Virus record (IMG/VR): IMGVR_UViG_3300042691_039521
Location: 16,528-80,527 of that record
Length of the DNA: 64,000 nt
Origin: a virus
Strand: one strand, 5' to 3'
Shown in pieces: positions 5,731-60,077 of this stretch. Every line of letters starts with the position of its first letter. Position 1 is the first letter of the stretch. The notes under the pieces were generated by a model. It had not been told where the DNA came from. It did not search any database and worked only from the letters and a program-made list of their open reading frames with translations. The position numbers and the translations under genes are program-made.

Positions 5731-6425
5731 AGATTGTTGTTGGCTGTCCCACCAGAAATAGAACATGGATTCTAGAAAAATGGCGCGACCATGTAGAGTT
5801 AGCAACCCCAGGTAATTGGGATTTAGAGTACTTATTTGTTGTTGGCGATAATGATCGTGAAACTATAGAGATGCTCTCTTCTTGGAAGAGAGCAAATATT
5901 ATCTATGTTGAAGAACAAGATCCAGGCATGAAGCGAACTTGGAATTCTAGTCGATATGATCACATGGTTTTTTTGAGAAACACTCTTTTGGATTCGGTGC
6001 GACACATTAATCCAGATCTTTTTCTCAGCCTTGATTCGGATATTCTACTTGGACAAAACACTCTAAGAGAGATGTACGAAACTGCTGTAGAGTATGAATT
6101 TGACGCTGTAGGCGGCTTGACTTGGTTGGACCCAATCGACCCTAAGTGTACAAATATTGCTTCTTGGGTTGGTTCAGATATGAAAGGCTTTAAGAGGGTT
6201 ATCTCTAGGGGACATCATAAAGTTGATATCATAATGGCTATAAAACTGATGCTACCTTCAGCATATAATGTAGAGTATGCTTATCATAGAATGGGTGAAG
6301 ATCTGGGTTGGAGTAAGAATATGTTTTTGAATCAAAAACGCATTGGAATGGATGGAAGAACTCCAAGTAAACACATTATGAAACCCGAGTATTTGAATAT
6401 GATTGATAAAAGGCTTTCTTGGTGA
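5727..6425 (+). CDS. glycosyltransferase, GT-A fold
   Basis: This 232-residue protein begins with the GT2-like opening MKIVVGCPTRNR and has a DxD metal/nucleotide-sugar site at D103-S-D105 (SLDSDILLG). It would transfer a sugar from a nucleotide donor to an unknown acceptor in the cytosol. It opens the glycan cassette (5727-11623), and its ATG overlaps the nuclease stop (ATGA). There are no membrane segments. Confidence 0.8.
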   Translation: MKIVVGCPTRNRTWILEKWRDHVELATPGNWDLEYLFVVGDNDRETIEMLSSWKRANIIYVEEQDPGMKRTWNSSRYDHMVFLRNTLLDSVRHINPDLFLSLDSDILLGQNTLREMYETAVEYEFDAVGGLTWLDPIDPKCTNIASWVGSDMKGFKRVISRGHHKVDIIMAIKLMLPSAYNVEYAYHRMGEDLGWSKNMFLNQKRIGMDGRTPSKHIMKPEYLNMIDKRLSW

Positions 6426-7174: not shown

Positions 7175-7973
7175 CTTTAAACAACTTGGTGATGTAGGTA
7201 GATTGGGTAATCAGCTATTCCAAATAGCTTGGACATATGCACAAGCTAAGGCTCATGGTGGAGATGTCTGTATTATTCCTAATTGGGATTATAAGCCATT
7301 CTTTAGAATTCCAGAAGAATTCTATAGGGAAGCTGGACCAAGATCTATAGATGGAGGAAGAGAGTTTTACCAAGATTTAGATTATTGGAATGGATATCAT
7401 CAAGATATATGGCATATGTTTCAACCTTCTAATGAAGCAATGGATAGAGTTATAGACTCTTTTGGTCTTGATCTATTCTCAACATTTGATGGAGCATGTT
7501 CTGTGCATTATCGACGCGGCGATTATCTAAACAACCCAAATCATTTCCCCACCTTACCAGATTCATATTATGAATCTGCAATGAAAAAGGTCTTAGAAAA
7601 AAGGGAAGATACAATATTTTGGGTATTTTCTGATGGTATACCTTTTGTGCGAAATGCTCACTTACAATCTGATTTTACAAAATCATTACTTGAGAATGAT
7701 CAGATTATGTACTATCAAGGAGTCGTAACGCCAATACCCCCAAGTCAGAGAACCAGTGAGCCTTTAGACTGGATAGATATGTTTGCCATGTCGTTTTGTA
7801 AGGATCACATAATAGCCAACTCCACATTTTCGTGGTGGTCAGCTTTTCTTTCTGGCCCAGGAGAAACTTTTTTCCCATCCAAATGGTTTGGGACCCACCC
7901 GGCAGTAAGAGATATACCATGGAGAAAAATGATACCAGAAGAATGGAGTGAATGTAATGTTGATGGACTTTAA
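7161..7973 (+). CDS. GT11 alpha-1,2-fucosyltransferase-like enzyme
   Basis: This 270-residue protein shows the GT11 signatures in order: GRLGNQLFQ (about residues 13-21), VHYRRGDYL mid-protein and the C-terminal motif NSTFSWWSAFL. GT11 enzymes move L-fucose from GDP-fucose to a galactose-type acceptor. No GDP-fucose synthesis genes are visible here, but a GDP-mannose 3,5-epimerase lies 3 kb downstream. Its product GDP-L-galactose is the 6-hydroxy analogue of GDP-L-fucose and is a possible donor. The GTG start overlaps the preceding gene. Confidence 0.88.
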   Translation: MKQYSFKQLGDVGRLGNQLFQIAWTYAQAKAHGGDVCIIPNWDYKPFFRIPEEFYREAGPRSIDGGREFYQDLDYWNGYHQDIWHMFQPSNEAMDRVIDSFGLDLFSTFDGACSVHYRRGDYLNNPNHFPTLPDSYYESAMKKVLEKREDTIFWVFSDGIPFVRNAHLQSDFTKSLLENDQIMYYQGVVTPIPPSQRTSEPLDWIDMFAMSFCKDHIIANSTFSWWSAFLSGPGETFFPSKWFGTHPAVRDIPWRKMIPEEWSECNVDGL

Positions 7974-8592
7974 TCAAGTTTATAAAAAATACAAGTTGCA
8001 AATAAATGGGGTACTACATGTTGGCGCACATTATGCCGAGGAAGCCAAGTTATATTCAGACCATAAAACTGGTCCAGTATGGTGGATAGAAGCTAATCCC
8101 GAGGTCCAGAGCCTCATTAAGAATAACCTTAGAGGTTTTCCTAACCAAACATTAATTGAAGCTTTAGTTTTTTCTGAGGATGGGATAGAGAAGAATTTTA
8201 ATGTTACAAACTATGGTGGAATGTCATCTTCTATATACGAGTTTGGAACACATACGTCCTTTAGTCCAGATATTCATTTTGAAAAGACTCTAAAATTGAA
8301 GACTAAAACTATTGATTCTATATGGAAAGAAAATAAGATAGAAGCAAACTTTATGAACATGGATCTACAAGGAGCAGAGGGGCCAGCCTTGCGAGGGGCT
8401 GTAGATTCTATTCCAAAACTTGACTACGTAATGACAGAGGTAAACAAAGCAGAAGTATACGTAGGTTGTACTCAGATCGGTGAAATAGACGAGATTCTAT
8501 CTGATTTTAAACGGGTTGAAACATTCTGGGTTGGGAACCAAGGTTGGGGTGACGCTCTTTATATACGCAAAACACTATTGGGAGGCAAATAA
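7957..8592 (+). CDS. FkbM-family methyltransferase
   Basis: This roughly 211-residue class I SAM-dependent methyltransferase has the SAM-binding motif GVLHVGAHYAEEA, an acidic strand end WWIEANPE and the FkbM motif MNMDLQGAEGPALRGA. Such enzymes O-methylate sugars. The frame opens at a GTG at 7948, but the ATG at 7957 is 8 nt after GGAG (7945-7948) and is preferred. It overlaps the GT11 gene end, which suggests coupled translation. The likely target is a sugar of the cassette's glycan. Confidence 0.82.
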   Translation: MLMDFNQVYKKYKLQINGVLHVGAHYAEEAKLYSDHKTGPVWWIEANPEVQSLIKNNLRGFPNQTLIEALVFSEDGIEKNFNVTNYGGMSSSIYEFGTHTSFSPDIHFEKTLKLKTKTIDSIWKENKIEANFMNMDLQGAEGPALRGAVDSIPKLDYVMTEVNKAEVYVGCTQIGEIDEILSDFKRVETFWVGNQGWGDALYIRKTLLGGK

Positions 8593-9335
8593 TGATGACA
8601 GATATTCACGTTTTGATTCCTTCGTACAACTGCTTGGAATGGATCGAAAGATGCCTAGACTCACTCTATAGTCAAACCACGCAGCCAGTGAAAGTTTTGG
8701 TTATAGACGATGCTTCAACAGAAGAGGGGTATGCGGAAAAGGCTCTAGAGGAATGTCAGAAACATGGGTATATGTATCTACGCAATGATGTGAATGAAAA
8801 GTGTCCATATAACCTTTGGCTCGGAGCTAAGATTCTGAATCCTAATCCAGATGATGTTATTTTTCTTTTAGATGGAGATGATTTTCTCCCTCACGAAAAT
8901 GTGCTATCTCGGATTCAAGAAGTATATCAAGATCCAGATGTTTGGATGACATATGGAAATTATGTTCCATATCCAAAGAATACAGGGCAAACCCTAGCCT
9001 CAGCTTATCCTCCAAAAATTATTAAGAATAGAGATTTTCGTACAGGGGGTAACCATTTTAATCATCCAATTACTTTCCGTAGATTCTTATTTGATGAGAT
9101 TACAGAAGAAGATTTAAAAACAAATGATGGAAGATGGTTTCGTGGCGGCTATGATTATGCTATTATTGTGCCAATGTTAGAAATGGCAACTGGCGAGCAC
9201 TATAGATTCTTAAACGAAGTTCTCTATAGCTATAATGCTGTTAACCCAATTTCTGATTCGAAAGTAAATATTGACTTAATTCATGAGACAAATCAACTAG
9301 TTAATCGGCCAAAAAGAGAGGTTCTTAATAGATGA
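8592..9335 (+). CDS. glycosyltransferase family 2
   Basis: This 247-residue canonical GT2 has the N-terminal HVLIPSYNCLEWIERCLDSL, the strand-helix VLVIDDAST and the DxD site LLDGDDFLP, followed by an acceptor region with GGYDYAI. It transfers a sugar from a nucleotide donor. It lies in the middle of the cassette and overlaps the next gene by 4 bp (ATGA). A good RBS (GGGAGGC) precedes the ATG. Of the cassette's glycosyltransferases it is the clearest by motif. Confidence 0.9.
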   Translation: MMTDIHVLIPSYNCLEWIERCLDSLYSQTTQPVKVLVIDDASTEEGYAEKALEECQKHGYMYLRNDVNEKCPYNLWLGAKILNPNPDDVIFLLDGDDFLPHENVLSRIQEVYQDPDVWMTYGNYVPYPKNTGQTLASAYPPKIIKNRDFRTGGNHFNHPITFRRFLFDEITEEDLKTNDGRWFRGGYDYAIIVPMLEMATGEHYRFLNEVLYSYNAVNPISDSKVNIDLIHETNQLVNRPKREVLNR

Positions 9336-10033
9336 ATTTATTCAAGGATTCCGTTGAGAAGTTTCCTAATTATAATTCACAGCACGGTGAAGATAAAATT
9401 ATTGCAGGTATATTTGATCGTATAGGCGAGGGACAAAAAAGATGTATGGAATTTGGTGCTGCAGATGGAGTATTTTGTTCTAACACCTATCCTCTATGGC
9501 ATATGCGTGGATGGTCTGCTACCTTGATTGAGTCAGATGAAGCACTATTTAGTCAGTTGAAAGATAGGGTTGACGGTAATGATAAAATTGAAATCATTAA
9601 TGCCGAGGTGAATAACGTTGATGATTTTGTAGATTATGAATTAGATTTATTATCTATTGATGTTGACGGCGAAGACTATGACATATGGGATGCTACAACA
9701 ATTCGTCACAGAGTTGTTGTGATAGAGCACAACCCCACGTTCCCACTACATGTTTGGTATCATGGCGGAAGATGGCAGGGTTGCTCTGCTAGGTCTTTGC
9801 ATCACTTAGCTGTTTCAAAGGGTTATAGATTAGTATCTGCAACCAAGACTAATCTAATCTTCGTAAGAGAAGAGGAAGCTTCTTTTATGAATGAGTTCGA
9901 TGATACACTTGAAGCGAATTTTGATGACAGTCAATTAAATTACGTTATTACAGATTATCAAGGAAATTTTGATGTAGTTGGAGAGCTTCCTTACGGGATG
10001 ATTCACAGAGAAAAGATGGGGTTTCATGTCTGA
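9332..10033 (+). CDS. FkbM-like methyltransferase domain protein
   Basis: This 233-residue Rossmann-fold protein opens with SQHGEDKIIAGIF, then CMEFGAADGVFCSNT (a glycine-rich SAM site), ATLIESDEALF and DLLSIDVDGEDYDIWDA, the FkbM-type sequence order. A C-terminal extension of about 50 acidic residues is unassigned. It is probably a sugar or lipid-linked-glycan O-methyltransferase; the substrate is unknown. It is flanked by overlapping genes of the same cassette. Confidence 0.75.
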   Translation: MNLFKDSVEKFPNYNSQHGEDKIIAGIFDRIGEGQKRCMEFGAADGVFCSNTYPLWHMRGWSATLIESDEALFSQLKDRVDGNDKIEIINAEVNNVDDFVDYELDLLSIDVDGEDYDIWDATTIRHRVVVIEHNPTFPLHVWYHGGRWQGCSARSLHHLAVSKGYRLVSATKTNLIFVREEEASFMNEFDDTLEANFDDSQLNYVITDYQGNFDVVGELPYGMIHREKMGFHV

Positions 10034-10655
10034 TTATAAACAAGAATACGAACAATGGAAAGAAGATGGGGCGATTGTTACAAAAAGATCTGTACCAGAA
10101 GAGGTAAAATGGTTTCTTATTTTAGATTATGCAAAACGTTTTAATCTAGATACACTTATCGAAACTGGAACAGCAGTTGCTGATACGCTTATTCATGTGG
10201 GTCATCAGTTTGAAAATATTTATTCATTTGAGTTAATGGAAACTTATTGGACTGTTGCGAAGCAGAATTTACAAGAAGCAAAAATTGATGCACATGTATT
10301 TAATGAGTCTTCTGCTGGGCAGTCGTTTATAAACCTAGTTAAGACCATTGACCAACCAGCCCTATTCTATTTAGATGCACACTATTCTGGAGAGGGGACT
10401 GGTAGTGACCCTTCACTTTCCACACCACACGTTCCCGTCAGGCAGGAGCTTAAAGTTATAACAACACATTCTCCTTACAATAATAGAAATGTTATTATTG
10501 TTGATGATGCTCGTTGCTTTAAGGGACAAGAATTTCATTCTGATGAATATAGTGGATACCCATCCATGGAAGAACTGCAAGAAATTGTAAAAGGAACTCA
10601 TATTGTAACACGTCAAGCAGATGCTTTTGTATTAACACCTAAGGATGTATCATGA
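10026..10655 (+). CDS. SAM-dependent methyltransferase-like protein
   Basis: This 209-residue protein has the class I methyltransferase order: IETGTAVADTLIH in place of a glycine-rich motif I, IYSFELMETYWTVAKQNL, ALFYLDAHYSGEG and NVIIVDDARCF. The motif I region is atypical (ETGTAVADT rather than GxGxG), but related cephalosporin-hydroxylase and FkbM-like enzymes vary here. The role in glycan modification is inferred from position. Confidence 0.65.
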   Translation: MSDYKQEYEQWKEDGAIVTKRSVPEEVKWFLILDYAKRFNLDTLIETGTAVADTLIHVGHQFENIYSFELMETYWTVAKQNLQEAKIDAHVFNESSAGQSFINLVKTIDQPALFYLDAHYSGEGTGSDPSLSTPHVPVRQELKVITTHSPYNNRNVIIVDDARCFKGQEFHSDEYSGYPSMEELQEIVKGTHIVTRQADAFVLTPKDVS

Positions 10656-11623
10656 ATATACTAGTTGCTGGAGCGGGTGGGTTTATTGGGGGTCATCTTG
10701 CTCGTAGATTACTTGCAGAAGGTCATGATGTATGTGGAGTTGATATCAAACCAGAGTGGGATTGGTATCAGCTTAATACAGATTATGAAGATAATTATAG
10801 AAGATTCTGCCTTGATCTTAGAGATTACGGAAATTGTATTGATGTAACTCGTTGGAGTGGAGCGGAACGAGTTTATAATCTAGCAGCAGACATGGGGGGC
10901 ATGGGCTTTATTGCAACTCACCGGGTTGATTGTATGCAATCTGCTCTGGTAACGATTAATATATTACGAGCAGCTGATCGGTTCGGAGTTGATCAGGTCT
11001 TCTATTCTTCATCTGCTTGTGTTTATAACGATAAACTACAGCAAGATACGGAGGTATCTCTTAAGGAGGATGATGCATGGCCAGCAGATCCAGAGCCAGG
11101 ATATGGTATGGAGAAACTTTTCGGAGAAGAAATTGCTAAATTCTATCGTGAAGAAACTGGTCTACGTACAGTGGTGGCTCGTTTCCACAACATTTTTGGT
11201 CCTAATGGCACCTTTGCTGGTGGTCGAGAAAAGGCTCCGGCTGCGATTTGTAGAAAGGTTATAGAAGCTAAGCTTAGTGGTAATTATGAGATTGAAATTT
11301 GGGGTGATGGAGAACAAACTAGATCATTCTTATATGTTGATGAGTGCTTAGAGGGTGTACAGAAAATGATTGATGCCGACGTTGATTTTCCGCTCAATCT
11401 CGGTAGTTCAGAGCTTGTTTCAATTAATGATCTTGTTTCCATGGTAGAAGATATTGCGGGAATTAAACTGCATCGAAACTATGATCTTTCAGCCCCTCAG
11501 GGCGTTCGTGGTCGAAATAGTGATAACACAAAAATTCAAGAAGTTCTAGGTTGGACTCCAACCGAATCTCTCTATTCTGGTTTAGAAAAAACATATGAGT
11601 GGATTTATAATAAGCTTATATGA
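10652..11623 (+). CDS. GDP-mannose 3,5-epimerase-like SDR enzyme
   Basis: This 323-residue extended short-chain dehydrogenase has the NAD-binding GAGGFIGG at residues 7-14. Family-specific stretches match plant/bacterial GDP-mannose 3,5-epimerase: MGGMGFI, SSSACVY with C123, Y151-x3-K155, ARFHNIFGP, GGREKAPAAICRK with K194, WGDGEQTRSFLYVDECLEGV and GVRGRNSDN. C123 and K194 correspond to the Arabidopsis catalytic C145 and K217, and Y151/K155 to Y174/K178. The reaction gives GDP-L-galactose (and GDP-gulose) from GDP-D-mannose. It is the last gene of the glycan cassette and supplies a donor for the GTs. The ATGA overlap shows coupling. Confidence 0.85.
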   Translation: MNILVAGAGGFIGGHLARRLLAEGHDVCGVDIKPEWDWYQLNTDYEDNYRRFCLDLRDYGNCIDVTRWSGAERVYNLAADMGGMGFIATHRVDCMQSALVTINILRAADRFGVDQVFYSSSACVYNDKLQQDTEVSLKEDDAWPADPEPGYGMEKLFGEEIAKFYREETGLRTVVARFHNIFGPNGTFAGGREKAPAAICRKVIEAKLSGNYEIEIWGDGEQTRSFLYVDECLEGVQKMIDADVDFPLNLGSSELVSINDLVSMVEDIAGIKLHRNYDLSAPQGVRGRNSDNTKIQEVLGWTPTESLYSGLEKTYEWIYNKLI

Positions 11624-11672: not shown

Positions 11673-12347
11673 TTGCCACCCAAGGTCACTAATTTTAATA
11701 CCGGTGAAGAAGTAGACATTACAGAAATAGAGGAAATAGAACAATATAAAGGAGTTACGGTTAAGACCCCATCAGGGGCGGAAATCTCCTTGTTAACAGA
11801 TGATGAAGCTAGATTCTACAATCAAATAGCTAAACAATATCAAGAACATAATAAGTTTACAAATATTTCCGATCTATTAGAGCTAGATAGGGTTTTGAAT
11901 TTAGAAGTTTTATGTTTTCGTCAATCAACTTGGGCGTTGCTTGAGTCTGATTATGACGGTAAGCCTGTCTCCAAAGACTTGCAAAAGAACATAAAAGAGC
12001 TTTCAAGAGAGATTCGTGATATTAAAACAGGTCTTGGAATAGATAAAAAAACGAGAGACTTAGGCAAGGGCGATACGATTGCAGAAAAATGGGAAAATCT
12101 AAAGAGACGTGCTCTTGAGTTTGGGTATATGAGAAATGAACAACTCATTAAATCTCATACCAATTGGAAAGAGTTGGAAGCAAGAATAACTGCATACAAG
12201 AATTCAACCGATGTTGAAAGAACTCAATTTGATTTACATCTTGAAGATATTGTTGAATGGTTAGAGGAAAAGTTTGTAGAATTTAATGAGATAGATGAAG
12301 CGTTTAGAGAGAGTCAGGCTATGTGGATTAGGGAGTTTAAGGCTTGA
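11673..12347 (+). CDS. hypothetical protein preceding terminase; small-subunit candidate
   Basis: This 224-residue charged, largely helical protein starts at a TTG with AAAGGAAAA upstream. The C-terminal half is predicted helical (IVEWLEEKFVEFNEIDEAF). No family is recognised. Lying directly before an HTH protein and the large terminase, it may belong to the packaging apparatus. It ends in an overlap with the next TTG start. Confidence 0.55.
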   Translation: MPPKVTNFNTGEEVDITEIEEIEQYKGVTVKTPSGAEISLLTDDEARFYNQIAKQYQEHNKFTNISDLLELDRVLNLEVLCFRQSTWALLESDYDGKPVSKDLQKNIKELSREIRDIKTGLGIDKKTRDLGKGDTIAEKWENLKRRALEFGYMRNEQLIKSHTNWKELEARITAYKNSTDVERTQFDLHLEDIVEWLEEKFVEFNEIDEAFRESQAMWIREFKA

Positions 12348-12859
12348 GCAAGAAAAAAGAGTTACACGAAAAGATCATTTCTCTTAAAGAGAAAAAATTT
12401 CCTCAACTCCAAGAAATAGATTGGTCTGAAGTTTTAAGAAAAAATCCTGATGTTTTAGAGAATATTGTCGGAGACATTGTTAAAGTAGAGGGAGCGCGTA
12501 GAAAAGTTGAACGCTCTAAGGCTACTCGCAGGATTAGTGCTATCTATAACATTGATCACTCTGAGAGAGAGTTCAAAGAGTCTTTTTCGATTCTAACTGG
12601 CTCGGAAAGTCTTAGAAAAACAGCTTCTAAAATAGACGTTTCCCCAGCTTATGTTCATAACCTTAAGCTTGGGAAAGCACAACCAACATTGGAAATCATG
12701 GAAGCAATAGCCTATGCATATGATCGTCACCCATCATTTTTTCTTGAGTATAGAATTCATTATGTTTTAGAATCTATTTCTTCTTTTTTAGTAAAGAACC
12801 CAGAAACGGCTACTGCTTGGTTTTCTAAGGTAACAAACGGGATATCTCTTCATGATTGA
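12344..12859 (+). CDS. HTH protein, putative terminase small subunit
   Basis: This 171-residue protein has an Xre-like helix-turn-helix at residues about 85-125 (ESLRKTASKIDVSPAYVHNL, then a QPTLEIMEAIA helix). It sits immediately before the large terminase with an 8-bp overlap, the usual place for the DNA-recognition subunit that selects packaging sites. The TTG start overlaps the previous TGA. The role is inferred from position plus the DNA-binding domain; a transcriptional regulator is the alternative. Confidence 0.6.
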   Translation: MSKKKELHEKIISLKEKKFPQLQEIDWSEVLRKNPDVLENIVGDIVKVEGARRKVERSKATRRISAIYNIDHSEREFKESFSILTGSESLRKTASKIDVSPAYVHNLKLGKAQPTLEIMEAIAYAYDRHPSFFLEYRIHYVLESISSFLVKNPETATAWFSKVTNGISLHD

Positions 12860-22198: not shown

Positions 22199-22582
22199 AT
22201 GACTCCTATTAAGAAGGATTTAGAAATTTGGCAGGGTAAAACCTATGATGAGCCTTGGATTTTTGGTCGAGCCATCAAAGATGAAACTGGTCAAGTTGTA
22301 GATACCGAGGTCACCAACCTTGGTGGCTATACTGGAAAGATGCAGTTAAGAGAATCTGTTGATTCAGAAGAACCAACTTTAGAGCTTACTACCGAGAATG
22401 GACGTATTCTTATTGATGCAGAACATGGTGAGGTGAGATTGTTTCTTACTGCAGAAGAAACAGCCGCTTTACCTGTTGGATCTTATAAATATGATTTAGA
22501 GCTTATTACCGCTTCGGGTCGTGTTTATGGTCCGCTTTATGGAAAAGTTAAGGTTAGAGCAGAGGTAACACGCGATGCCTAA
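22199..22582 (+). CDS. fibre-base or upper-baseplate-like protein
   Basis: This roughly 127-residue protein begins with [18 protein letters not shown], then [22 protein letters not shown] and a beta-sandwich-like end [24 protein letters not shown]. The pattern resembles BppU-like N-terminal domains that anchor fibres. A GTG lies one codon before the ATG, and neither has a strong RBS. It overlaps the collagen-like fibre gene by 8 bp. Confidence 0.6.
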
Positions 22583-24167
22583 TTATATAGAAGATGATGA
22601 CAATGAAATCATTTTCTTGGGCGAAGACGTAGAGACTACCGAAACACTTATTCCTGGTGAACCGGAAACTCTATTCGTGCAAATGGGTCTACAAGGACCA
22701 GAGGGAGCGCAGGGTCCTGCTGGCGATGGTGGTACCGGGCCAACAGGCCCAAGCGGTCCCACAGGCCCACAGGGCGATCCTGGCGGCCCCACGGGGGCGA
22801 CCGGTCCATTTGGGGCAACCGGACCATTAGGAGCGACTGGGGCGACTGGGGCTATAGGAGCAACCGGAGCAACCGGTATACAGGGCGCTACTGGTGCCGC
22901 TGGTGAAGTTGGCTACACTGGACCAGTAGGTGCGAGTGGTGGCCAAGGAGCAACCGGTTCGGTCGGTGCTACTGGTGCTACTGGAGCACATGGTGCTACT
23001 GGTTCAATAGGTTTACAAGGATTTACTGGACCCGCTGGTCCGGCCGGCGCTACCGGCGTTCAGGGTGAGATTGGTGAAGTTGGAAATACTGGTCCGAGTG
23101 GTGCTACGGGAAATCAGGGTTTTACTGGCGCAATCGGATCAACTGGCGCAACCGGGCCACAGGGTTCAACTGGCGCAACCGGTCTTGATGGCATAACAGG
23201 AGCGACCGGTGCTTCGGGTCCACAGGGTGATATTGGTGCTACCGGTCCTGCCGGAGCAACTGGAATAGCTGGATCTACTGGGGTGATGGGAGCAACTGGT
23301 TCGCAGGGAGCAACAGGCGCAACTGGCCCAGCAGGTGCAACCGGCTCCCAAGGAAACGCTGGTTTTACCGGAGTCCAAGGAGCAACTGGTCCGATCGGTC
23401 CAGATGGAGCCACTGGTTCGGTCGGTGCTACTGGTGCTACTGGAGTTTCTGGTCTAGTGGGAGCCACTGGCGCACAAGGTCCTACCGGATCAACTGGACC
23501 CATTGGCGAAACTGGCGCTACGGGGGTTGGTTCTGCTGGTGCGACTGGTGCTACCGGTCCAGACGGTGCGACCGGACCACAGGGTACTTCCATTATCACT
23601 AATGCTTCTACGTATTCTAGCAACTTAGGCTATCATTTACCCGGCGTACTCTGGGATAGTCTTAATAATGCTGTTGCGGTTACCGCTAACACAATTCGTT
23701 ATGTTCCATTTCTAATTAGGGCTGGGACATTGACGGTAGATCGTATTTGTTTTGAGGTGACCACTCTTCAGGCTAATAGTAATGCGAGAGTTGGGGTTTA
23801 TACTGCTGACTCAACATGGCAACCAACTGGTGCTGCTCTTATTGACGCCACGGCAACAACTGCGACTACAGGGGCTAAAAATATTACTGTATCAGGGACA
23901 TTGCCTGCTGGGCGCTATCTTGCATGTATAGTTTCCGATGCCAACATCAGCGTAAGATCTGGAGCAGCTAGACCAACATGGGGAACTGATCACGCCGCTA
24001 CAGTTGTGACCGCTCCATCTTCTGCTCAAATTATTACTAGTCGTAGTACCTCGCTTACCTATCCATCTTCATTACCAAATTCGGGGCCAGCTTGGAACGC
24101 TATATCTGGTTCTGCAACTAATCCAAATACTGATCCACTTATCTTACTAAGGGGCACTTACTCATGA
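22575..24167 (+). CDS. collagen-like fibre protein
   Basis: This 530-residue protein has a short N-terminal anchor (residues 1-35), then about 300 residues of Gly-X-Y triplets dominated by Gly-Ala-Thr (about 37-335), and a C-terminal globular domain of about 190 residues. Triplet runs should form a trimeric collagen-like shaft. The C-terminal domain has [10 protein letters not shown] and [19 protein letters not shown] and resembles the C terminus of the fibre at 44375, so it is probably a receptor-binding tip. It is translationally coupled to both neighbours. Confidence 0.9.
22680..23590 (+). repeat. collagen-like Gly-X-Y coding repeats
   Basis: This is a tandem array of 9-bp units mostly encoding Gly-Ala-Thr. 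Codon choice varies between units, but longer exact repeats occur: the 30 bp at 22956-22985 recur at 23415-23444, 459 bp apart and in frame. Recombination between such copies would lengthen or shorten the fibre shaft without a frameshift. Confidence 0.9.
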
Positions 24168-24451: not shown

Positions 24452-27163
24452 TTGTCTACTACTTATATTGTACAAGGTAAACAAGGACCAGAAGGCGCCC
24501 AAGGGGCAACTGGTCCACAGGGTGCAACTGGACCTGCTGGTGGTGGGACAGAAGGTCTTTTTCGATCCCAGTATCATTCTCTCTTAGAGGGAGAATATAT
24601 TCTAGATGACGAAGATGGGGTTATTGGTGGCGCTGGAACAATCATTTTACCAGCGATTTCAGAAGACGAACAAGATCCTAGAGTCTGGGTTATATCCGCT
24701 TATAGTGGTGATATAATTCTTCAGACCGAAAATGAAGCACCTATATTTATTCTGGATAATCAAAGTCAGCAGCCATACACCATTTCGCAGAATTCTGTTA
24801 TTCATCTTTTAAGATATGTTGGTGTATGGAGAATTATTTATGATTCTTCTGTAATTGGCGACGCTAACCCTAGTGCATCTGTTATTCCAGCATCTGTTAT
24901 TTTATATTGTCCAACACTCACGGCTGAAGACCTAACACCAGCAGAAAATGATGTTATGTACTGGGTTGAGCGTACCCCTAATCTAGTAACACCAGATCCA
25001 GATACTGGTTTATCTGACTGGACAACTCGACAGGTCTTTTCTTGGACAGAGGGTTGGGCCACGGATAATGATCCCATTAATGTCTTGATGATGGTCGATT
25101 CAGATAGTTGGTTCCCAACAATATTGGCAGAGGTTGTGCCTGATGGTTTTAGCGCCATTGAAGTTTCTGGCGGTCAGCCAATTGTTCTTGGTTGTGGCGG
25201 ATCTGCTGATCCATCCGGTTCTATATGGTCGGGATGGAATGTTGGAGATAATATGGCTGGTGCTATTGATCCCATGGAGCCAGCAACTCATATTATCCCA
25301 GTTGGTTTAACAGCGGATTTAATCAGGTTAGTAGATCGTTTTGGTTCTGGTGATCATGAAAATCTAGCCGATTGGTATAGTGCTGTCAATGAGGCTCTCA
25401 AACCATCTAATTCAATTACTAAAGATAGTGATATTTGGTATTTAAATAATACTTCCCTTCCAGTGGATCAGATTTCTGTTTCTGTAGAGAGAAATATTAT
25501 TGCAACTCACGAAGAACTTGTTGATGCTGGATTAGAAGCTTATTTTGATGGTTCTAGTGGCGGTTATATTAAAGATTTAAGAGGTAAAGTTTGGAATGCC
25601 AATTTTATGTCCTCTGAACAAAGCGGGTTTGTTCCCATTGTTGATGGAATCTTTATTTTCTCTGATGCAGAAACCATTCCTATTTCTAATTTACCAGAGG
25701 GATATTTAGGTTCTGGTGGACCAATATATGATATTGGTAATGGTACCGGCATGATGATTCTTCACTTAGAGGGCGCTTATTATCAAAAATTAGCAGCAGC
25801 CAAAGTTGTTATGGATGCAAATGGTCCTGTTTCAGTAACATATCTTGGTGATATTTACACTTCATATATGACAGAATCAGCAGTTCAAGCTTTAGAAGAT
25901 TGGATAGCTTCTGCTGGCTCTGGTATTTTCACTATTTTCAATGATTATATGTATGTGTATGGTGTTGATTATTTGGATTCTAGTGGCGTTCCAATTTATA
26001 CTGTTGCCCGCTGCTCAACTTCGGATATAGTTAATGCAATTTCCAGTGACCAAGCACCACTTTTCTATAAGTATTATAACGATGAGTGGACAGAACTTGG
26101 CCTTGGTGGAAATGCTTTTGATTTAGGACTTGATAGCCCAAGAGGTAATGGAGATATTGTTATTCTCCCCGATGGTCGTTATCTTTGGGTAGGAATTAAT
26201 AGTCCACTTGGAGATAATGTCTTAGCTTATTCAACTTCTTTAGATGGAATTGATTGGTCCCCATGGTACAATCTATTTGACCCAGAGCCAGCGACTGTAG
26301 AATGGATTTATTCTACTATTTGGACGGGAGATGAACAATTTACAAACGAACACAAAGTCACTGGTTCTCAGATAAAAGTTATGATTGTTGAAGCAGATCT
26401 TGCTGATCGCTGGGGTACCAATCAAATTCTTGAATTCACACTTAGACCAGCCGTTGCTAATGTAAATCTCATAGACATGCAAGAATCTATAGATACGATT
26501 GAAGATAGCATAGCTGATCTTACGGGCTATGATCAAATGTTATTTAGAGAACTTAGACTTGGTAGTGCATCGGTTTCTCCTGGTGGTGAGACTATTGGAT
26601 ATATGGCAGCTATGGCTGGGGCATTATTCCTTTCCGAACCATATACAGATTCCCTAATTGATACGTCATTATTAGGCGATCCAGTAGCAACTGCTTGGGA
26701 TGTTAGTTCTGATCTTAGTCCCTCTGCTCCTGATCCATATTCTTTGGTTTTTGACTGGGGAGCGCCAGGTGAGGGTCCAGGCGTTGATGGAGCTTGGAAG
26801 TCATCAATGGCCTTTGTTATCCCTCAGACCCCATCAGGATTAGATTTTGTTGGATTCAGACTTTTGGGAGTTGTATATGATGTTCAGGAACCATTAATTT
26901 ATAATTCTCTAACAATTGCAGCGGTTATTCTTAATTTTGACGATTTTAGTCTTTCTCCAGGGGCAATGGAGGGTTATAGTGGGTCTTATTCTACATATGT
27001 GATGGTCGTTGATAAACCTGTTCCCGCTGGAGTTCCTGAAATTGGAGTATCTGGTAAGACGGCAGTTGTTGAGTTTAACTGGAATAATACTGATTTCACT
27101 CCTCCTGGGAGCTTAACGATCGACGCAATAGAACTTCTTTATAGAAACCAAATAGTCATTTAA
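24452..27163 (+). CDS. large fibre/adhesin with short collagen-like segment
   Basis: This 903-residue protein starts at a TTG after AAAGGAG. The N terminus has about nine Gly-X-Y triplets, followed by beta-rich domains. Residues about 640-690 include IDTIEDSIADLTGYDQML, a short possible trimeric coiled coil, before a final beta-rich domain. The architecture suits a tail or head fibre that binds the host surface. It lies between the head-tail connectors and the endolysin. No enzymatic motif was seen. Confidence 0.75.
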   Translation: MSTTYIVQGKQGPEGAQGATGPQGATGPAGGGTEGLFRSQYHSLLEGEYILDDEDGVIGGAGTIILPAISEDEQDPRVWVISAYSGDIILQTENEAPIFILDNQSQQPYTISQNSVIHLLRYVGVWRIIYDSSVIGDANPSASVIPASVILYCPTLTAEDLTPAENDVMYWVERTPNLVTPDPDTGLSDWTTRQVFSWTEGWATDNDPINVLMMVDSDSWFPTILAEVVPDGFSAIEVSGGQPIVLGCGGSADPSGSIWSGWNVGDNMAGAIDPMEPATHIIPVGLTADLIRLVDRFGSGDHENLADWYSAVNEALKPSNSITKDSDIWYLNNTSLPVDQISVSVERNIIATHEELVDAGLEAYFDGSSGGYIKDLRGKVWNANFMSSEQSGFVPIVDGIFIFSDAETIPISNLPEGYLGSGGPIYDIGNGTGMMILHLEGAYYQKLAAAKVVMDANGPVSVTYLGDIYTSYMTESAVQALEDWIASAGSGIFTIFNDYMYVYGVDYLDSSGVPIYTVARCSTSDIVNAISSDQAPLFYKYYNDEWTELGLGGNAFDLGLDSPRGNGDIVILPDGRYLWVGINSPLGDNVLAYSTSLDGIDWSPWYNLFDPEPATVEWIYSTIWTGDEQFTNEHKVTGSQIKVMIVEADLADRWGTNQILEFTLRPAVANVNLIDMQESIDTIEDSIADLTGYDQMLFRELRLGSASVSPGGETIGYMAAMAGALFLSEPYTDSLIDTSLLGDPVATAWDVSSDLSPSAPDPYSLVFDWGAPGEGPGVDGAWKSSMAFVIPQTPSGLDFVGFRLLGVVYDVQEPLIYNSLTIAAVILNFDDFSLSPGAMEGYSGSYSTYVMVVDKPVPAGVPEIGVSGKTAVVEFNWNNTDFTPPGSLTIDAIELLYRNQIVI

Positions 27164-44374: not shown

Positions 44375-46441
44375 ATGGCATTTCCACCACCAAATTATCC
44401 ATATCAAGATAATGTGCATGATGTTGTTGCTGTTATTGTGAACGAGATTATTGCTGAGATTCAAGCTCACGAAGCCTCTCAGGTGAACGTTCATGGGATA
44501 ACAAACACAGCTAATTTAGTCACCACAGCGTCTCTTACAGAGCTTGTGCAGGATATTGTGGCTGCACAATTTTCTGCTGGCACCCATGTAGGCGCAACAA
44601 TCACATATAATGATGGTGATGGTTCACTTGATGTTGAAATAAGTGCGACTGGCGCTACTGGCCCACAGGGACCAATGGGATATACTGGACCCTCTGGCGC
44701 TACTGGCCCCGCTGGCGTTGGTGTTATTGGTGCAACTGGTTCTTCTGGACCCTCTGGCGCCACTGGCCCCGCTGGATCTACCGGAGCAACCGGTTCCGGT
44801 GTTACTGGCGCTACCGGAGCACAGGGTCCCGTAGGTGCAACTGGTTCTCGTGGCGCAACTGGTGCCACCGGCGCAGGAGCGACCGGTTCCACCGGGGCGA
44901 CTGGGCCTGTCGGAGTAACCGGTGCAACAGGTGCTGGCTTTACCGGGGCGACCGGTGTTGCTGGCCCCACTGGTTCAGCGGGCGCAACTGGCGCTACCGG
45001 CGTTCAGGGAAATGACGGAATTGCGGGTCCAACAGGTGCGACCGGCCCGGCTGGTTCTCCTGGTGGAGCAACCGGACCCACTGGTCCAGTGGGGGCTACT
45101 GGCGCAGGCGCAACTGGTGCCACTGGTCCGCAAGGTCCAATTGGAGCAACAGGTGTAGCGGGTTCACCGGGTGGAGCAACGGGGGCAACTGGGCCAGTTG
45201 GGGCAACCGGCGCTGGCGGTGGTGGTGGGGTTGAATATTTTGAAATGACCACTACCGATCTTGATTTAGACCCTTCTTTATTTAGTGCTTATAATATTAT
45301 CGTGGTTAAGTACAATGCAACCAAAAAAGCTTTTAGACTGCCGATGGCCAACGAGGTTCCAGCCGGAACTGTTTTTCATTTTTTCCAACACTGCGTAGAT
45401 GGTCCAGCGCCAGATACTAACGTTTACGATGATCTTGCTGAGGTTGGCGAATGTTATATTGTTAGAAATGACGCCGGAACCGCTGCTCCATATTATCTTA
45501 CAAGCCCTGTCGGTATTTGGGGTGATACTTTAAACGGAAATAACTGGTATGTCCAAGATTTTACTAGATCTAGTATTGGCGGAAGTTTAAGGCAAACAAT
45601 TTTTATATCTGATGGCGCAAGTAATTGGACTAATCCTTTTGGAGAGTACATTACAAAACATCCCGAGTTTAACTCTTCTTCGCTTGTTACTGCTACTGGT
45701 GGCTATACTCCAGAAATGGCGTTGGACCCAGCGGTTTTTGCTGTTAACAAGCCTGGGGCTTATGTTTTGGGTTCTGGTGGATATAATCCTATTGATTGGA
45801 TTCCACAGCCAAATAGAACAGCGCTAGCTAGACCAACTACCTCAATTGAGGGTGTTTTTGGTGGAACCCCTGTTTACCCAGATTTTCCCGATATATGGAA
45901 TGGCACCGATACCTTTGCTGTGCCCGGGGTGAACTTAACATCTATTGGCACTGTTTCTATCGGAACTAGAAGATATTATTCGCCAATGAGGCTTGATATG
46001 CCAACGGGAATACAAGAGATAATGCTTGAGGTTACCAGTGCTGGCACTGAAACAGAAATTAAAGTAAGATTATTTAAGGCCGATCGACACTGGCAACCAG
46101 ATAATTTTTGGGAATATGATTATTTTTGGGATCTTGGCACTTTCAATGTTGTTGGCAATGGGGTTAAAAAGCTTCCTGTTGGTGGCTATTATAATGCTGG
46201 AAATTATATTATAGCTTATCAAGCTAATAATAGAGGAAGCTGTACCGTAAGAGAATGGAGGGGTTCTATGCCTGGATGGGGCGTAATTGGAACGGGTGGA
46301 TCTACTAGTTTTATATCTCGTGGTAAATTTGATACCACAATCAGTAATGAGGATATTACCGACCAACCCTGGTCAGCATATGATACATCTAGTTATGGTC
46401 TATCTTGCCCTATTCTCTTTAGATATTCTTACGGGAGATAA
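44375..46441 (+). CDS. collagen-like tail fibre
   Basis: This 688-residue protein has an N-terminal segment with [20 protein letters not shown], typical of phage fibre N termini (residues 30-50), then about 195 residues of Gly-X-Y triplets (about 91-285) and a C-terminal globular region of about 400 residues. Its last 160 residues resemble the C-terminal domain of the fibre at 22575 (pattern R-Y-x-(S/V)-[21 protein letters not shown]). It is encoded between the two distal-tail-like genes and is probably a receptor-binding fibre. Confidence 0.85.
44645..45230 (+). repeat. collagen-like Gly-X-Y coding repeats (second array)
   Basis: 9-bp units encoding mostly Gly-Ala-Thr and Gly-Pro-x triplets. 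Several stretches recur almost exactly, such as GGACCCTCTGGCGC at 44689 and 44747. The array could change length by recombination with itself or with the 22680-23590 array. Confidence 0.85.
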
Positions 46442-54931: not shown

Positions 54932-55378
54932 ATGACACTTTTTGAAAAATTACAGAAAAGATTATCAAACACCCCAGAACAAATAGAAAAAATCATCTAT
55001 ATTTTAGAGAAGTATAATTTGCGTATTAACATACGCTGCTTTGATCAATATGGTTTAGTTTTATTTGATGAACGAAGAAAAACCGTAAGGATAGTTTTCG
55101 GAGAAAAGGGACAAACTCTGATAAAAATAGAACCCTTTTATGCTGATATTGGTATCATCTATATTGGAGAGCTATTAGCTGGGTGGATAGAGAAATCTAA
55201 AATTGAGATTGATGGATCATTATGGTTTATAGATCCACAAACCCTACATAAAATGCCTAAAGAATTTCTGTTTAAACAGGAATGTCCACATATGGACATA
55301 TATGGTGGTTTAAGTGACGGGGAATACTGGGAATGTTTAGGATGTGGTGAAAGGTTAGTGTTCAGTGAAAACATCTAG
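54932..55378 (+). CDS. hypothetical protein with zinc-binding-like C terminus
   Basis: This 148-residue basic protein has an N-terminal helix (TPEQIEKIIYILEKYNLRI) and a C-terminal Cys/His cluster (ECPHMDIYGG, then ECLGCGERL) that fits a small zinc ribbon. It starts after AAAGGAG and overlaps the Xre gene. It heads the replication block and could be a regulator. No family is recognised. Confidence 0.6.
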   Translation: MTLFEKLQKRLSNTPEQIEKIIYILEKYNLRINIRCFDQYGLVLFDERRKTVRIVFGEKGQTLIKIEPFYADIGIIYIGELLAGWIEKSKIEIDGSLWFIDPQTLHKMPKEFLFKQECPHMDIYGGLSDGEYWECLGCGERLVFSENI

Positions 55379-55610
55379 TAGTAAAGAATTTAGAGCTTTG
55401 ATGAGATTCTTGCGCGAACGTAATGAAATCTCAGCACGCTCTCTTTCCGAGAAGTCGGGTGTTTCATTATCATATGTTTCAAAGATGGAAAAGGGAGATG
55501 TGACTCCAACTGTGGAGGTTTTTTCAAAAATTATTTCAAACCTCAATGTTTCTAATGCTGAACTAATTTATCTTATTCGCATTTTAGCTGATACAACAGA
55601 GGGAGAATAA
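55365..55610 (+). CDS. Xre-family HTH regulator
   Basis: This 81-residue protein is almost entirely an Xre/Cro helix-turn-helix: FLRERNEISARSLSEKSGVS, then LSYVSKMEKGDVTPTVEVFSKI. It would bind operators as a dimer. The GTG start overlaps the preceding gene. It is encoded directly before the Cas4-like nuclease and may control the replication operon; the target is unknown. Confidence 0.85.
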   Translation: MKTSSSKEFRALMRFLRERNEISARSLSEKSGVSLSYVSKMEKGDVTPTVEVFSKIISNLNVSNAELIYLIRILADTTEGE

Positions 55611-55611
55611 C

Positions 55612-56436
55612 ATCAAATTTAGCGCATCTCAATTAAAATCTTGGCAGAACTGTGCTTTACAAACAAAGTATAATTATATTGATGAGCAGGTAAAACCACG
55701 AAGTCTTGGTTCTGCAGCAATGTTTGGGTCTGCCGTTCACGAAGCAATTGATCGTTGGCATAAAGGCGCCACCGAAGATGAAGCAATTGAAATATTTGAA
55801 TATGAAATGACAAAACAGGAACCAGATTATTGGAACCGCATGACGACACTTACGGGATATCTTGATCAAGGGCCACGTATGATCAGTGAGTATATTGCCG
55901 CTAGAGAGTGGGCTTACTCTGATGTGATAGCTTCGGAGTTCCGTTTCATGGTCGATATAGGCGAGCATCAGTTGAGTGGTATTGTTGACCTCATGGAGTT
56001 ACCTCATGATCATTCAGCCTTAGATATTGTTGATCTTAAAACGGGTAAACGACCAATCCTCGACACATTACACCTAGATATTCAGTTCACTATTTATCAA
56101 TGGAGTACATATCAAAAAGAGTTTTGGTGTGGGCATCCTGATGAGCCAGATAAGTACACTGGCTTTGAGAATGGCGAAGAACTTTTTGAATACTTCCAGA
56201 AAATTCCACGTAGAGGATGGTGGTATGACCTCAAAAAAGGTGATCGGGTATATGTTGGAGATAGAACAGCCAGGGATTTTGGTAGACTCTATAGACTTAT
56301 AGAACAGGTTGCTAGAGCAATCGAATATGAAGTTTTTATTCCAACTATAAATGGTGATACTTGTACGTGGTGCGAACATACTGATATTTGTCCGGTTTAT
56401 TTTGAGAGAGAAAATAATGCCGAGCCTGAATATTAA
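55612..56436 (+). CDS. Cas4/RecB-like PD-(D/E)xK nuclease with 4Fe-4S motif, AUC start
   Basis: This roughly 274-residue exonuclease-type protein has an N-terminal FSASQLKSWQNC with C14, then FGSAVHEAIDRWH. Nuclease residues follow in GIVDLMEL and DIVDLKTGK, with IQFTIYQW after them. The C-terminal cluster C251-x2-C254-x5-C260 together with C14 forms the iron-sulfur staple of AddB/Cas4 enzymes. The first ATG (55720) would remove the conserved N terminus including C14. The frame continues upstream to an ATC at 55612, 6 nt after GGGAG, and no ATG, GTG or TTG exists in that stretch (a CTG at 55588 lacks an RBS). Its role is likely DNA end processing with the Sak4-like ATPase downstream. Confidence 0.85.
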   Translation: MKFSASQLKSWQNCALQTKYNYIDEQVKPRSLGSAAMFGSAVHEAIDRWHKGATEDEAIEIFEYEMTKQEPDYWNRMTTLTGYLDQGPRMISEYIAAREWAYSDVIASEFRFMVDIGEHQLSGIVDLMELPHDHSALDIVDLKTGKRPILDTLHLDIQFTIYQWSTYQKEFWCGHPDEPDKYTGFENGEELFEYFQKIPRRGWWYDLKKGDRVYVGDRTARDFGRLYRLIEQVARAIEYEVFIPTINGDTCTWCEHTDICPVYFERENNAEPEY

Positions 56437-56602
56437 TCTAATTATGCGTCCCAAAACTATTCAGGTTGGTCCAGGGGGGTATCTTGTTTCAGTTTTTATT
56501 GAAGATCAACTTGCTTTTTCTCTGCCAACATTATATAATAGTTATGATGAAGCAAGAGAAGCAACTCTTGAATATATGTATGAAAGGTTAAAGAGTGACT
56601 GA
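56417..56602 (+). CDS. small hypothetical protein (61 aa)
   Basis: The frame opens earlier, but the ATG at 56417 with AGAGAG upstream is the likely start, overlapping the nuclease gene by 20 bp. It is a short alpha/beta protein (YLVSVFIEDQLAFSLPTL, then a helix). It overlaps the ATPase gene start by 8 bp. The function is unknown. Confidence 0.6.
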   Translation: MPSLNINLIMRPKTIQVGPGGYLVSVFIEDQLAFSLPTLYNSYDEAREATLEYMYERLKSD

Positions 56603-57518
56603 AAAATTATTGGTCGAATTTAGTGGTAAGAAAGATTTAACACCATATGTACGAATGCTTTTAGCTGGAGAGGCTGGTTCAGGCAAAACAGAATATGCTC
56701 TGACTGCCCCTAATCCCATATGGGCATCAGCGTATCCAGATAAAGTTGCTTTAGCGAAAGCAACAAATACAAGATATGTTAATATTAATAATGAACAAGA
56801 TCTTTTATTGCTTCATAAAGCTTTGAAAGAAGAATTAATTGAAGCTGAAACTGTTGTCATTGACCGTGTAGATGAAATTCAAAGACGAATGTTCATCAAC
56901 AGAATGATTACAGAAAAAAGAGATTTTCTAAAAAATGATGACTGGAACTGGATGGAAGCTAAGCTCAATCAAATTGCTAAGGGCTTCTGCGATTTAGAAA
57001 TCAATGTGATCTTCATCTGTCAGACACGAGATGTCGGTGGTTTCGATGGACAAGATTTTATTACCAAACCAGATATCCAGGGTGGTTTTGCTCAAGATAT
57101 TTATTCTTATGTAGATTATGCTTTACATTTGGAAAGAAATTTGAGTGAGGTAGAAGTTCGAAATGTTTTTGAAGAAGTTGGAACTGATAAGGTTTTATTT
57201 GAAAACATTTCTTTAGAAATACTTGGTCCACAGTTAAGAACTGTACCATCTGTCAGATATCCTTGGATCTTTGATAGAACAAAAACTTTAGACACCTTTA
57301 CTTCTGCTGATAGCTATGATATAATAACTGAGGCCAGAAAAAATATGGTGATTGAAGAGGGAAGCGATCCACTAGAAATAGTGTTTCAACCAATAGAAGA
57401 TGGTGAGCGTAAAGATACTTCTATTCCCGGCATGTCTAAAGCAGACAAGCTTAATAAAATTCTAAATAAAAGCACACAAAATCAAAAGGAGCATAATGCC
57501 AGCATTAACAGCAAGTAA
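56595..57518 (+). CDS. Sak4-like RecA-fold ATPase
   Basis: This 307-residue protein has Walker A GEAGSGKTEYAL (residues about 25-36) and a Walker B-like ETVVIDRVDEI. The single short RecA-like domain, with a downstream ssDNA-binding-like gene and an upstream Cas4-like nuclease, matches Sak4-type phage recombination modules that pair single strands. The GTG start overlaps the previous gene. AAA_24-type phage ATPases are close alternatives with the same likely role. Confidence 0.78.
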   Translation: MTEKLLVEFSGKKDLTPYVRMLLAGEAGSGKTEYALTAPNPIWASAYPDKVALAKATNTRYVNINNEQDLLLLHKALKEELIEAETVVIDRVDEIQRRMFINRMITEKRDFLKNDDWNWMEAKLNQIAKGFCDLEINVIFICQTRDVGGFDGQDFITKPDIQGGFAQDIYSYVDYALHLERNLSEVEVRNVFEEVGTDKVLFENISLEILGPQLRTVPSVRYPWIFDRTKTLDTFTSADSYDIITEARKNMVIEEGSDPLEIVFQPIEDGERKDTSIPGMSKADKLNKILNKSTQNQKEHNASINSK

Positions 57519-57999
57519 TTCAAATTCAAATCCTCAAACCGGTTTTGATACAAAAACAAAAGATGATTTTCCAGCTATTCCACCCGGCACCTATGACGCC
57601 GAGGTTGCGAGAATCGAATATCGCACGAAGGAAGATGTTCTAAAAAAGAGAGAAGAAACAGGCAAGGGTTTTTGGCCTGACTGGAAGACCTATGATGCAG
57701 AGATTGCTATCGGATTCCGTATCACTAATGGCGAATACAAAGGTCGTTGGTTCTTCGGTGACACCGAAGCAGATTTTTCCATGGGGTCAAAGCTCCGTAT
57801 TTGGGTAAGCCAACTTCTCGGTTTTAAGATTCCAGATGACTTCGTTTTTGATACCGACGAACTGGAAGACTATGAGGGTCTTGATTGTCGAATTAAGCTG
57901 AAAAGATTCACTAACAAGAAGGGTGTAGAAAAGAACTCTATTGTCGAGGTCCTCTCTTCAGAGGGCGCAAACTACGATGATGCTGATGGAATTTTCTGA
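57496..57999 (+). CDS. putative single-stranded DNA-binding protein
   Basis: This 167-residue protein has a beta-barrel-like body (PPGTYDAEVARIEY, DAEIAIGFRITNGEYKGRWFFGD, LDCRIKLKRFTNKKG) and an acidic C terminus (YDDADGIF). An OB-like fold with an acidic tail ending in an aromatic residue is typical of phage ssDNA-binding proteins. It sits next to the Sak4-like ATPase, a common pairing. The call combines sequence pattern and context. Confidence 0.65.
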   Translation: MPALTASNSNSNPQTGFDTKTKDDFPAIPPGTYDAEVARIEYRTKEDVLKKREETGKGFWPDWKTYDAEIAIGFRITNGEYKGRWFFGDTEADFSMGSKLRIWVSQLLGFKIPDDFVFDTDELEDYEGLDCRIKLKRFTNKKGVEKNSIVEVLSSEGANYDDADGIF

Positions 58000-58226: not shown

Positions 58227-60077
58227 TTGGAAGATATCAGAGAGTATCTTGAATCAAAAGATTTGCAAGTAAAAGAGCGTGGCTCTGAGAATATCTCAAC
58301 CCACTGCATGTTTTGTGATGAAGATCCCAGCAAACCGGGTCGCCTTTATATAAATGTAGATGAAGCCGGAGACAAGTACGGTGTTTTCTTTTGTTTTCTT
58401 TGTCAAGCGAAAGGCAACTATAACACTATTCGTCAACATTATGGTGATCCACTTATTCATTTAGATCCCGTTGTCACCGAAAGTAATCCTATTTTTGACA
58501 TTGCAACAAAATATTATGAAGATCAACTTTTAAAAAACCCTCAACCTTATAAGTATTTAACAGATGATCGTGGACTTCATGATGAAACTATTCGCAAAGC
58601 TCGTTTGGGTTGGGCTGACGGTGGGCTATGCAACCATTTGGTTCAACAGGGCTTTGATCCTGAGGATATTAAATCAACAGGATTGGTCAACCGTTTCGGT
58701 GAAGACTTTTTTCATAACCAAATTACTTTTCCCTATTTGGAATATGGGGTGGCTCGCTCCATTCGTGGCAAAGGTATTGGTAAGAAAACAATTAGTTTAC
58801 CCGGTGAGCTTCCAATTCCTTATGGTCTTGATACGATATTGGGTGAAAAAACTGTCAGTGTTTGCGAAGGTGAAATTGATACATTGACAATGCACCAGCT
58901 TGGTTTCCCAACGATTGGTATACCTGGGGCACTTACATTTAAGAATGGTTGGGAAGAACATTTCGATACAGCCAAAAGAATTTATACAATTCTTGATCAA
59001 GATAAAGCTGGAAAAGCTGGTGCCGAAAAAATAGCTGGAATCTTGGGGCCTCGGGTACGTGTTGTTGAGCTACCTAAAAAGGGAATTGATGTTAACGATT
59101 GGTACCTGAAGTATGGCAAGAACGCTGATGATTTTGAGTATCTTATGCGTAAAGCCAAGGGTGGCTTGCTTATCTCTATCGAAGAAGCGATGGAGCGATG
59201 GACTGAAATAGAAGGTAATCCGCATGTCGATGGTCTTCGATTCGGTATTGAAGAAATAGATAGTGCTATGGATTTTGGTTTGATTCCCGGTCAAATCATG
59301 ACAATGATTGCAAGAACCGGTAACGGTAAAACTATTTGGACCTTGAACCTATTACATAGAATGAGGTTACAGAATCCAGAGATTAAAATCCTTTTTCTTT
59401 CCCTAGAGCAGACGCGTAATGAATGGTTCGAAAGAGCACATCGTATTCATAACTTTTATGAACCAGGAGCTTCCGTTATTGATACGGTCAATTTCTGGAA
59501 AAACAATATGTATATAGTTGATAAGAATCGTGTCACCGAAGACCAGCTTGTCGACTCTATAGATCAATTTCAGTATGAAATGGGAACTCTACCAGACTTC
59601 ACTGTCATTGATTATCTCGGCTATTATGCTCGTAGTTTTTCTGGTAATAATATTGAAAAAGTTTCTGATGCTATTATGGGGGCAAAAGCTATTGCTAAAG
59701 ACTTTGGTTTAGCAATGTTCCTTCCACATCAAGCTAATCGAACCAATACGCTTGGTACACGGTTGAGTATTGATCAAGCAAAGGATGCTGCAACGGTTGA
59801 GGAAACTAGCGATATCATGTTAACGCTGTGGCGACCAGATCAGCACGAGGAAGCTGGAGACGAAGCTGCTGGACAGGTTCGTCAAGAGATAGTTAAAACA
59901 CGACAGGGTGGGTATGGAACGTTGATTAAATATATTTATGCTCCCTTGACTTTTGCTATTATTCCATCTTCAGATCCTTTATATTCAAGAGTATTACAAG
60001 AACGACAGTTTGCTTTAGCTGGTGACGATTGGAAGAAAGCTGTGAACAGACATTTGACCGGTGATATGGATTTGTGA
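58227..60077 (+). CDS. DNA primase-helicase (T7 gp4/Twinkle-like)
   Basis: This 616-residue replication protein has an N-terminal CHC2-like zinc site with C27-x2-C30 and C56-x2-C59 and a TOPRIM domain (SVCEGEIDTLTM, then YTILDQDKAGKAG, about 205-275). A DnaB-type RecA motor carries Walker A ARTGNGKT at about 362-369 and Walker B-like DFTVIDYLG. It makes primers and unwinds DNA at the fork. The TTG start follows AAAGG. It works with the DnaE-type polymerase at the window end. Confidence 0.93.
   Translation: MEDIREYLESKDLQVKERGSENISTHCMFCDEDPSKPGRLYINVDEAGDKYGVFFCFLCQAKGNYNTIRQHYGDPLIHLDPVVTESNPIFDIATKYYEDQLLKNPQPYKYLTDDRGLHDETIRKARLGWADGGLCNHLVQQGFDPEDIKSTGLVNRFGEDFFHNQITFPYLEYGVARSIRGKGIGKKTISLPGELPIPYGLDTILGEKTVSVCEGEIDTLTMHQLGFPTIGIPGALTFKNGWEEHFDTAKRIYTILDQDKAGKAGAEKIAGILGPRVRVVELPKKGIDVNDWYLKYGKNADDFEYLMRKAKGGLLISIEEAMERWTEIEGNPHVDGLRFGIEEIDSAMDFGLIPGQIMTMIARTGNGKTIWTLNLLHRMRLQNPEIKILFLSLEQTRNEWFERAHRIHNFYEPGASVIDTVNFWKNNMYIVDKNRVTEDQLVDSIDQFQYEMGTLPDFTVIDYLGYYARSFSGNNIEKVSDAIMGAKAIAKDFGLAMFLPHQANRTNTLGTRLSIDQAKDAATVEETSDIMLTLWRPDQHEEAGDEAAGQVRQEIVKTRQGGYGTLIKYIYAPLTFAIIPSSDPLYSRVLQERQFALAGDDWKKAVNRHLTGDMDL

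Follow-up and report, generated by a model that had tools for sequence, protein, structure and literature searches.

A probable AUC start codon on the gene for a PD-(D/E)XK nuclease in an isolated phage

Homologous starts in related phages, together with a strong Shine-Dalgarno (SD) sequence, support the proposal of the first-pass annotation that a phage nuclease gene probably starts at AUC, and we consider it likely that translation begins at this codon (ATC, 55612..55614, + strand). The gene lies in a window of 64,000 nucleotides, the whole stretch of DNA analysed here, which was taken from an IMG/VR virus record of 80.5 kb (bases 16528-80527) assembled from a metagenome. The position of the start is well supported by the related phages. 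If the base call is right, a codon other than ATG, GTG or TTG stands at a protein start that is fixed independently of the codon itself.

Reading frame and predicted nuclease

The nuclease frame (55585-56436) reads *LIQQRENNIKFSASQLKSWQNCALQ... and remains open up to the stop ending at 56436. Its first codons are TAG 55585, CTG 55588, ATA 55591, CAA, CAG, AGG, GAG, AAT, AAC and ATC 55612, and the first in-frame ATG (55720..55722, +; Met37 of the protein) follows 36 codons after the ATC. This listing bears out the earlier remark that the frame has no ATG, GTG or TTG back to the in-frame stop, as none occurs from TAG 55585 to ATG 55720. With 44 codons, the open stretch before the first canonical start is the longest among the 50 called genes of the 64-kb window, to which this statistic is confined, and the next longest measure 22 and 19 codons. 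By themselves, 36 codons in a row without a start are unremarkable (35% of in-gene 36-codon windows); the case for the start takes its weight from homology and the SD sequence, not from the lack of start codons.

The 36 codons lost by a canonical start call (55612..55719, +) encode Ser4, Ser6 and Cys14, which are invariant in the alignment of starts and belong to the modelled fold. Codon usage in this stretch scored +3.7 bits in the nuclease frame versus -22.7 and -29.4 bits in the other two frames, and the 8 codons preceding the ATC scored negative (-4.2 bits). Pfam, alignment, codon usage and the structural model agree that the stretch is really protein-coding. The family's conserved start coincides with the ATC codon, in agreement with the earlier observation that the conserved N terminus, including the first cysteine, lies upstream of the first ATG.

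The 274-residue protein (55612..56436, +) matched PF12705 (PDDEXK_1) with 81.1 bits (cutoff 22, E 1.6e-22), residues 3-261 aligning with positions 2-247 of the 247-position profile, and its PHROGs match was phrog_69, exonuclease. In a diverse alignment of eight sequences, S4, S6, C14, G39, H43, D126, D141, K143, Y162, C251, C254 and C260 were invariant. The PDDEXK_1 catalytic core (H, D, D-x-K: H43, D126, D141, K143) is thus present and invariant among diverse homologues, and all eight sequences show the cysteine pattern of Fe-S RecB-family nucleases, with one N-terminal (C14) and three C-terminal residues (C251, C254, C260), a pattern which we take to resemble that of AddB/Cas4-type Fe-S nucleases. 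By motif, the protein is a predicted PDDEXK_1 nuclease of the four-cysteine Fe-S type. The earlier label 'Cas4/RecB-like' holds at the superfamily level, but the match to the Cas4 equivalog TIGR00372 reached 19 bits against a cutoff of 65, so we did not class the protein as Cas4. Structurally, AdnA matches it best.

An AlphaFold model built from the eight-sequence alignment had a mean pLDDT of 87 (mean of 90 over residues 1-10). In this model, a short strand and two helices of the nuclease domain are built from the N-terminal segment. The predicted fold needs this segment, and solved nuclease structures align from residue 1 of the model. The closest solved fold was the AdnA nuclease domain (9np6; Z 21.4, 2.6 A over 231 residues), with further matches to the ACE1 Cas4-family protein (9iac; Z 17.3) and AddB (4cei; Z 15.8). 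These three resemble the model over residues 1-263 of 274 and in the PD-(D/E)XK core, whereas the phage protein shares 13-20% identity with them and is a stand-alone protein encoded beside a Sak4-like ATPase, neither fused to a helicase nor part of CRISPR adaptation.

Start signal and gene spacing

The nuclease gene is part of a replication and recombination gene string, xre - nuclease - Sak4-like ATPase - SSB-like - primase-helicase, all on the + strand. It is preceded by a 148-residue protein without assigned function that carries a C-terminal CPH..C..C motif (54932..55378, +) and by the Xre/Cro-type helix-turn-helix gene (55365..55610, +; PF01381, 1.4e-11). Downstream follow a small gene overlapping the nuclease end (56417..56602, +), a Sak4-like AAA_24 recombination ATPase (56595..57518, +; PF13479, phrog_124), a likely SSB-type replication protein with weak matches (57496..57999, +; phrog_2300, and phrog_7778 at 0.0098) and the primase-helicase (58227..60077, +; phrog_239, 1e-46). 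Judged by gene order, the nuclease probably acts with the adjoining Sak4-like ATPase in recombination or replication of the phage.

The stop codon of xre is TAA 55608-55610, which makes the junction UAA-C-AUC with a gap of 1 nt. An SD-like GAGGGAG (55599..55605, +) lies within the 3' end of xre, and its GGGAG (55601-55605) ends 6 nt before the ATC, just as first described. The anti-SD pairing in front of ATC 55612 (-9.4 kcal/mol) was equalled at 1.8% of random positions and at 1 of the 168 internal ATC codons. Of the window's 36 canonical gene starts, ten had an SD equal to or better than this one, which places it within the better third of them. RNA folding around the start revealed no special structure (z +1.25), and Rfam gave no match in the window.

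It is very improbable that the protein is instead a truncated form from Met37 or begins at a near-cognate CTG 55588 or ATA 55591. ATG 55720 is the choice of a standard gene caller and the other two codons are both in frame, but usable SD pairing is absent at all three (-3.3 kcal/mol at ATG 55720, +1.7 at CTG 55588 and +1.1 at ATA 55591). A start at Met37 would discard the invariant Ser4, Ser6 and Cys14 along with two helices of the fold, and a start at CTG or ATA would add 7-8 residues with a negative coding score. The two near-cognate codons were dropped as candidates for want of an SD. Spacing is in line with the upstream start as well: with the ATC start, the gaps along the gene string are -14, 1, -20, -8 and -23 nt, while a start at ATG 55720 would leave 109 nt between xre and the nuclease in a string whose genes otherwise overlap. 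We therefore judge Met37 to be internal.

Homologous starts in related phages

Neither the nuclease nor the primase gave a match when scanned singly against IMG/VR, and a megablast of the 52-64 kb region against GenBank phages was likewise negative. The virus is thus very isolated, and its relatives were therefore reached through the capsid protein and terminase, after which the records of these relatives were searched for the nuclease. The capsid and terminase relatives comprised IMG/VR contigs with 35-49% identity and one mangrove-soil phage. A scan of genome_contigs yielded only helicase-fused homologues, and no contig of the same species turned up in an exact scan that left the third base of the start codon free.

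Several features of the wider genome were recorded along the way. Upstream of the terminase, window positions 5727-11623 hold a cluster resembling glycosyltransferase, methyltransferase and epimerase genes, and a similar cluster is annotated at the equivalent place in the terminase/capsid relative GX15bay (MK557849). Immediately before the large terminase lies a second HTH_3-type gene (12344-12859), possibly a small terminase or a regulator. Proteins with collagen-like G-x-x (GATGPxG) repeats adjoin the tail genes (22575-24167, 24452-24520 and 44375-46441) and are probably tail-fibre or virion-surface proteins. In the virus's own record left of the window (L028, 12990-13690), the ORFs seem G+C-rich, unlike the remaining 41% G+C genome, and this stretch is possibly a foreign insert or an assembly chimera.

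The first-pass annotation had asked whether related phages carry ATG at the homologous position, and they have ATG (G015, G034) or GTG (G032, G025/G026) there. The G015 nuclease (40% identity over residues 1-157) starts with ATG, MKFSPSMIRSFMNC, directly after xre, and its protein begins MKFSPSMIRSFMNCSLQ (MKFSPSM). That of G032 (33-34% identical) starts with GTG, MKFSASMIKNWMAC, and begins MKFSASMIKNWMACPLQ (MKFSASM). More distant homologues, each about 26% identical, begin MRIRQSDLASFQRC (MRIRQSD) after ATG in G034 and MIIRQSDLASFQRC (MIIRQSD) after GTG in G025/G026, whose start regions are identical to each other. The window sequence IKFSASQLKSWQNC (IKFSASQ) aligned with all four of these starts with no gap from the start to the conserved serine. 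Since these are four independent homologous starts, they support a nuclease start at 55612, and with an ATC codon at the position of the relatives' ATG or GTG, translation must begin at or next to 55612. One syntenic homologue differs: in G002 (38-40% identical), the ATG lies at the xre stop, 18 residues further upstream, so that its protein carries 18 extra residues.

Gene order is also shared. The xre gene precedes the nuclease in both G002 and G015, the Sak4-like ATPase is syntenic in both, so that the order xre - nuclease - Sak4 is common to them and the window, and the G002 primase-helicase is 39% identical. In G015 (144.9 kb), the local order comprises a 140-residue counterpart of the 148-residue upstream protein, xre, the nuclease, a small gene and the Sak4-like ATPase. 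The G015 nuclease (L056 145-1992 on the - strand; about 61.1-63.0 kb in G015:C1) is a single 615-residue ORF with an insertion of ~1 kb within the conserved D-x-Q-F motif. The insert starts CADSETQILTRRGWKTY and ends ...FTGNS, and it looks like an intein lodged in the motif of the active site.

In the relatives, the canonical start codon and the stop of the preceding gene share bases as RTGA, with GAATGA at the G015 junction, whereas the window has a 1-nt gap and another frame; the junction itself has therefore been rebuilt, a point against the AUC reading. This comparison bears on a possible Xre-nuclease fusion made by some ribosomes through frameshifting at GAG GGA GAA TAA. In favour of it, the 8 codons in front of the ATC are open in the nuclease frame and overlap the xre end, and the slip site has a stop codon and an SD-like sequence. 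A +1 slip, however, gives no re-pairing for tRNA-Glu, the sole re-pairing option seen being a -2 slip (GAA to GAG), and the negative coding score of those 8 codons also speaks against it. Furthermore, xre and the nuclease of G002 and G015 stand in a different relative frame with an own ATG at the junction, and the G032 nuclease is preceded by a gene other than xre. Given that the nuclease of the relatives starts independently at the junction and that their two frames are related differently, we disfavour fusion and regard it as highly unlikely. Programmed frameshifting was dropped as a candidate because the frame relation differs in the relatives.

None of the relatives found has a noncanonical start codon, all of them using ATG or GTG, so the ATC was seen once, in a single assembled contig. 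The noncanonical codon is not kept across related genomes, and for this reason we do not class it as a conserved regulatory codon. Together with the lack of a same-species contig, this keeps a wrong base, or a mutation private to this genome, in consideration. Were the ATC an error of sequencing or assembly, the phage itself would have ATG (or GTG or TTG) at 55612, an ordinary start 1 nt after the xre stop. ATC and ATG are one base apart, the relatives all have ATG or GTG at the homologous position, the SD and spacing are typical of ordinary genes in the same phage, and no independent copy of this metagenome assembly was found. Against this, the assembly has no N, contains uninterrupted ORFs of up to 4003 codons and gives no sign of poor quality. 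Per base, consensus errors should be rare in metagenome assemblies, but natural AUC starts are rare too. On balance, we hold such an error to be unlikely, although it carries an appreciable chance. It is extremely unlikely that the ATC is a real loss-of-start mutation in a gene that is being lost, with the nuclease made little or not at all. The noncanonical codon occurs only in this genome among the relatives found, but the remainder of the gene is intact and keeps all catalytic residues (H43, D126, D141, K143) and cysteines.

Proposed initiation at AUC and known noncanonical starts

If initiation occurs at AUC 55612, ribosomes ending xre at UAA 55608-55610 could be held by GAGGGAG and restart 1 nt downstream. 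Alternatively, new 30S subunits bound at GAGGGAG could set the initiator tRNA on the AUC. In either case, initiator fMet-tRNA on the AUC would give a 274-residue protein starting fMet-Lys-Phe-Ser. AUC can pair with just two positions of the initiator anticodon, a kind of pairing that IF3 rejects; a low yield per message and sensitivity to IF3 would hence be expected for the nuclease by analogy with known AUC/AUU genes. AUC initiation usually lowers or regulates translation, and regulation of the nuclease by IF3 is a conjecture. A fuller proposal, in which AUC reinitiation after the repressor-like Xre keeps a potentially harmful nuclease scarce and ties it to host IF3 and xre translation, seems to us rather improbable.

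The AUC start of the nuclease is a probable further case of the noncanonical starts known from infC and sigR. The gene for IF3, infC, starts with ATT in E. coli and ATC in Streptomyces (PMC5472188). It shares with the nuclease an AUH-type start codon, including AUC, and a protein start fixed independently of the codon, but infC autoregulates via IF3 with a conserved codon, whereas the nuclease ATC was seen in only one phage. Streptomyces sigR, with a GTC start repressed by IF3 (PMC5472188), likewise has a noncanonical start that is backed by a strong SD and overlooked by gene callers, but its start is experimentally proven, conserved genus-wide and belongs to a cellular regulator. In phage SPP1, genes 15 and 16 meet at a UAAGAUG junction, and the start of gene 16 was confirmed by N-terminal sequencing (PMC6316719). 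There, too, a phage gene starts 1 nt after an upstream UAA, consistent with translational coupling, although SPP1 uses a canonical AUG without a ribosome-binding site and the nuclease has a ribosome-binding site but AUC. Phrase and keyword searches of the open-access literature gave no report of a phage gene with an AUC start.

For the nuclease family, the practical consequence is that standard gene callers would place the start of this protein 36 codons too far downstream and so omit the first of the Fe-S cysteines, and a Met37-start protein, if expressed for study, is predicted to be probably inactive. If the AUC start is true, a phage replication gene joins the very few bacterial and phage genes that are initiated at AUC, noncanonical starts in viral metagenomes can evidently be found by homology-guided start calling, and the question would arise whether phages throttle nucleases by weak start codons.
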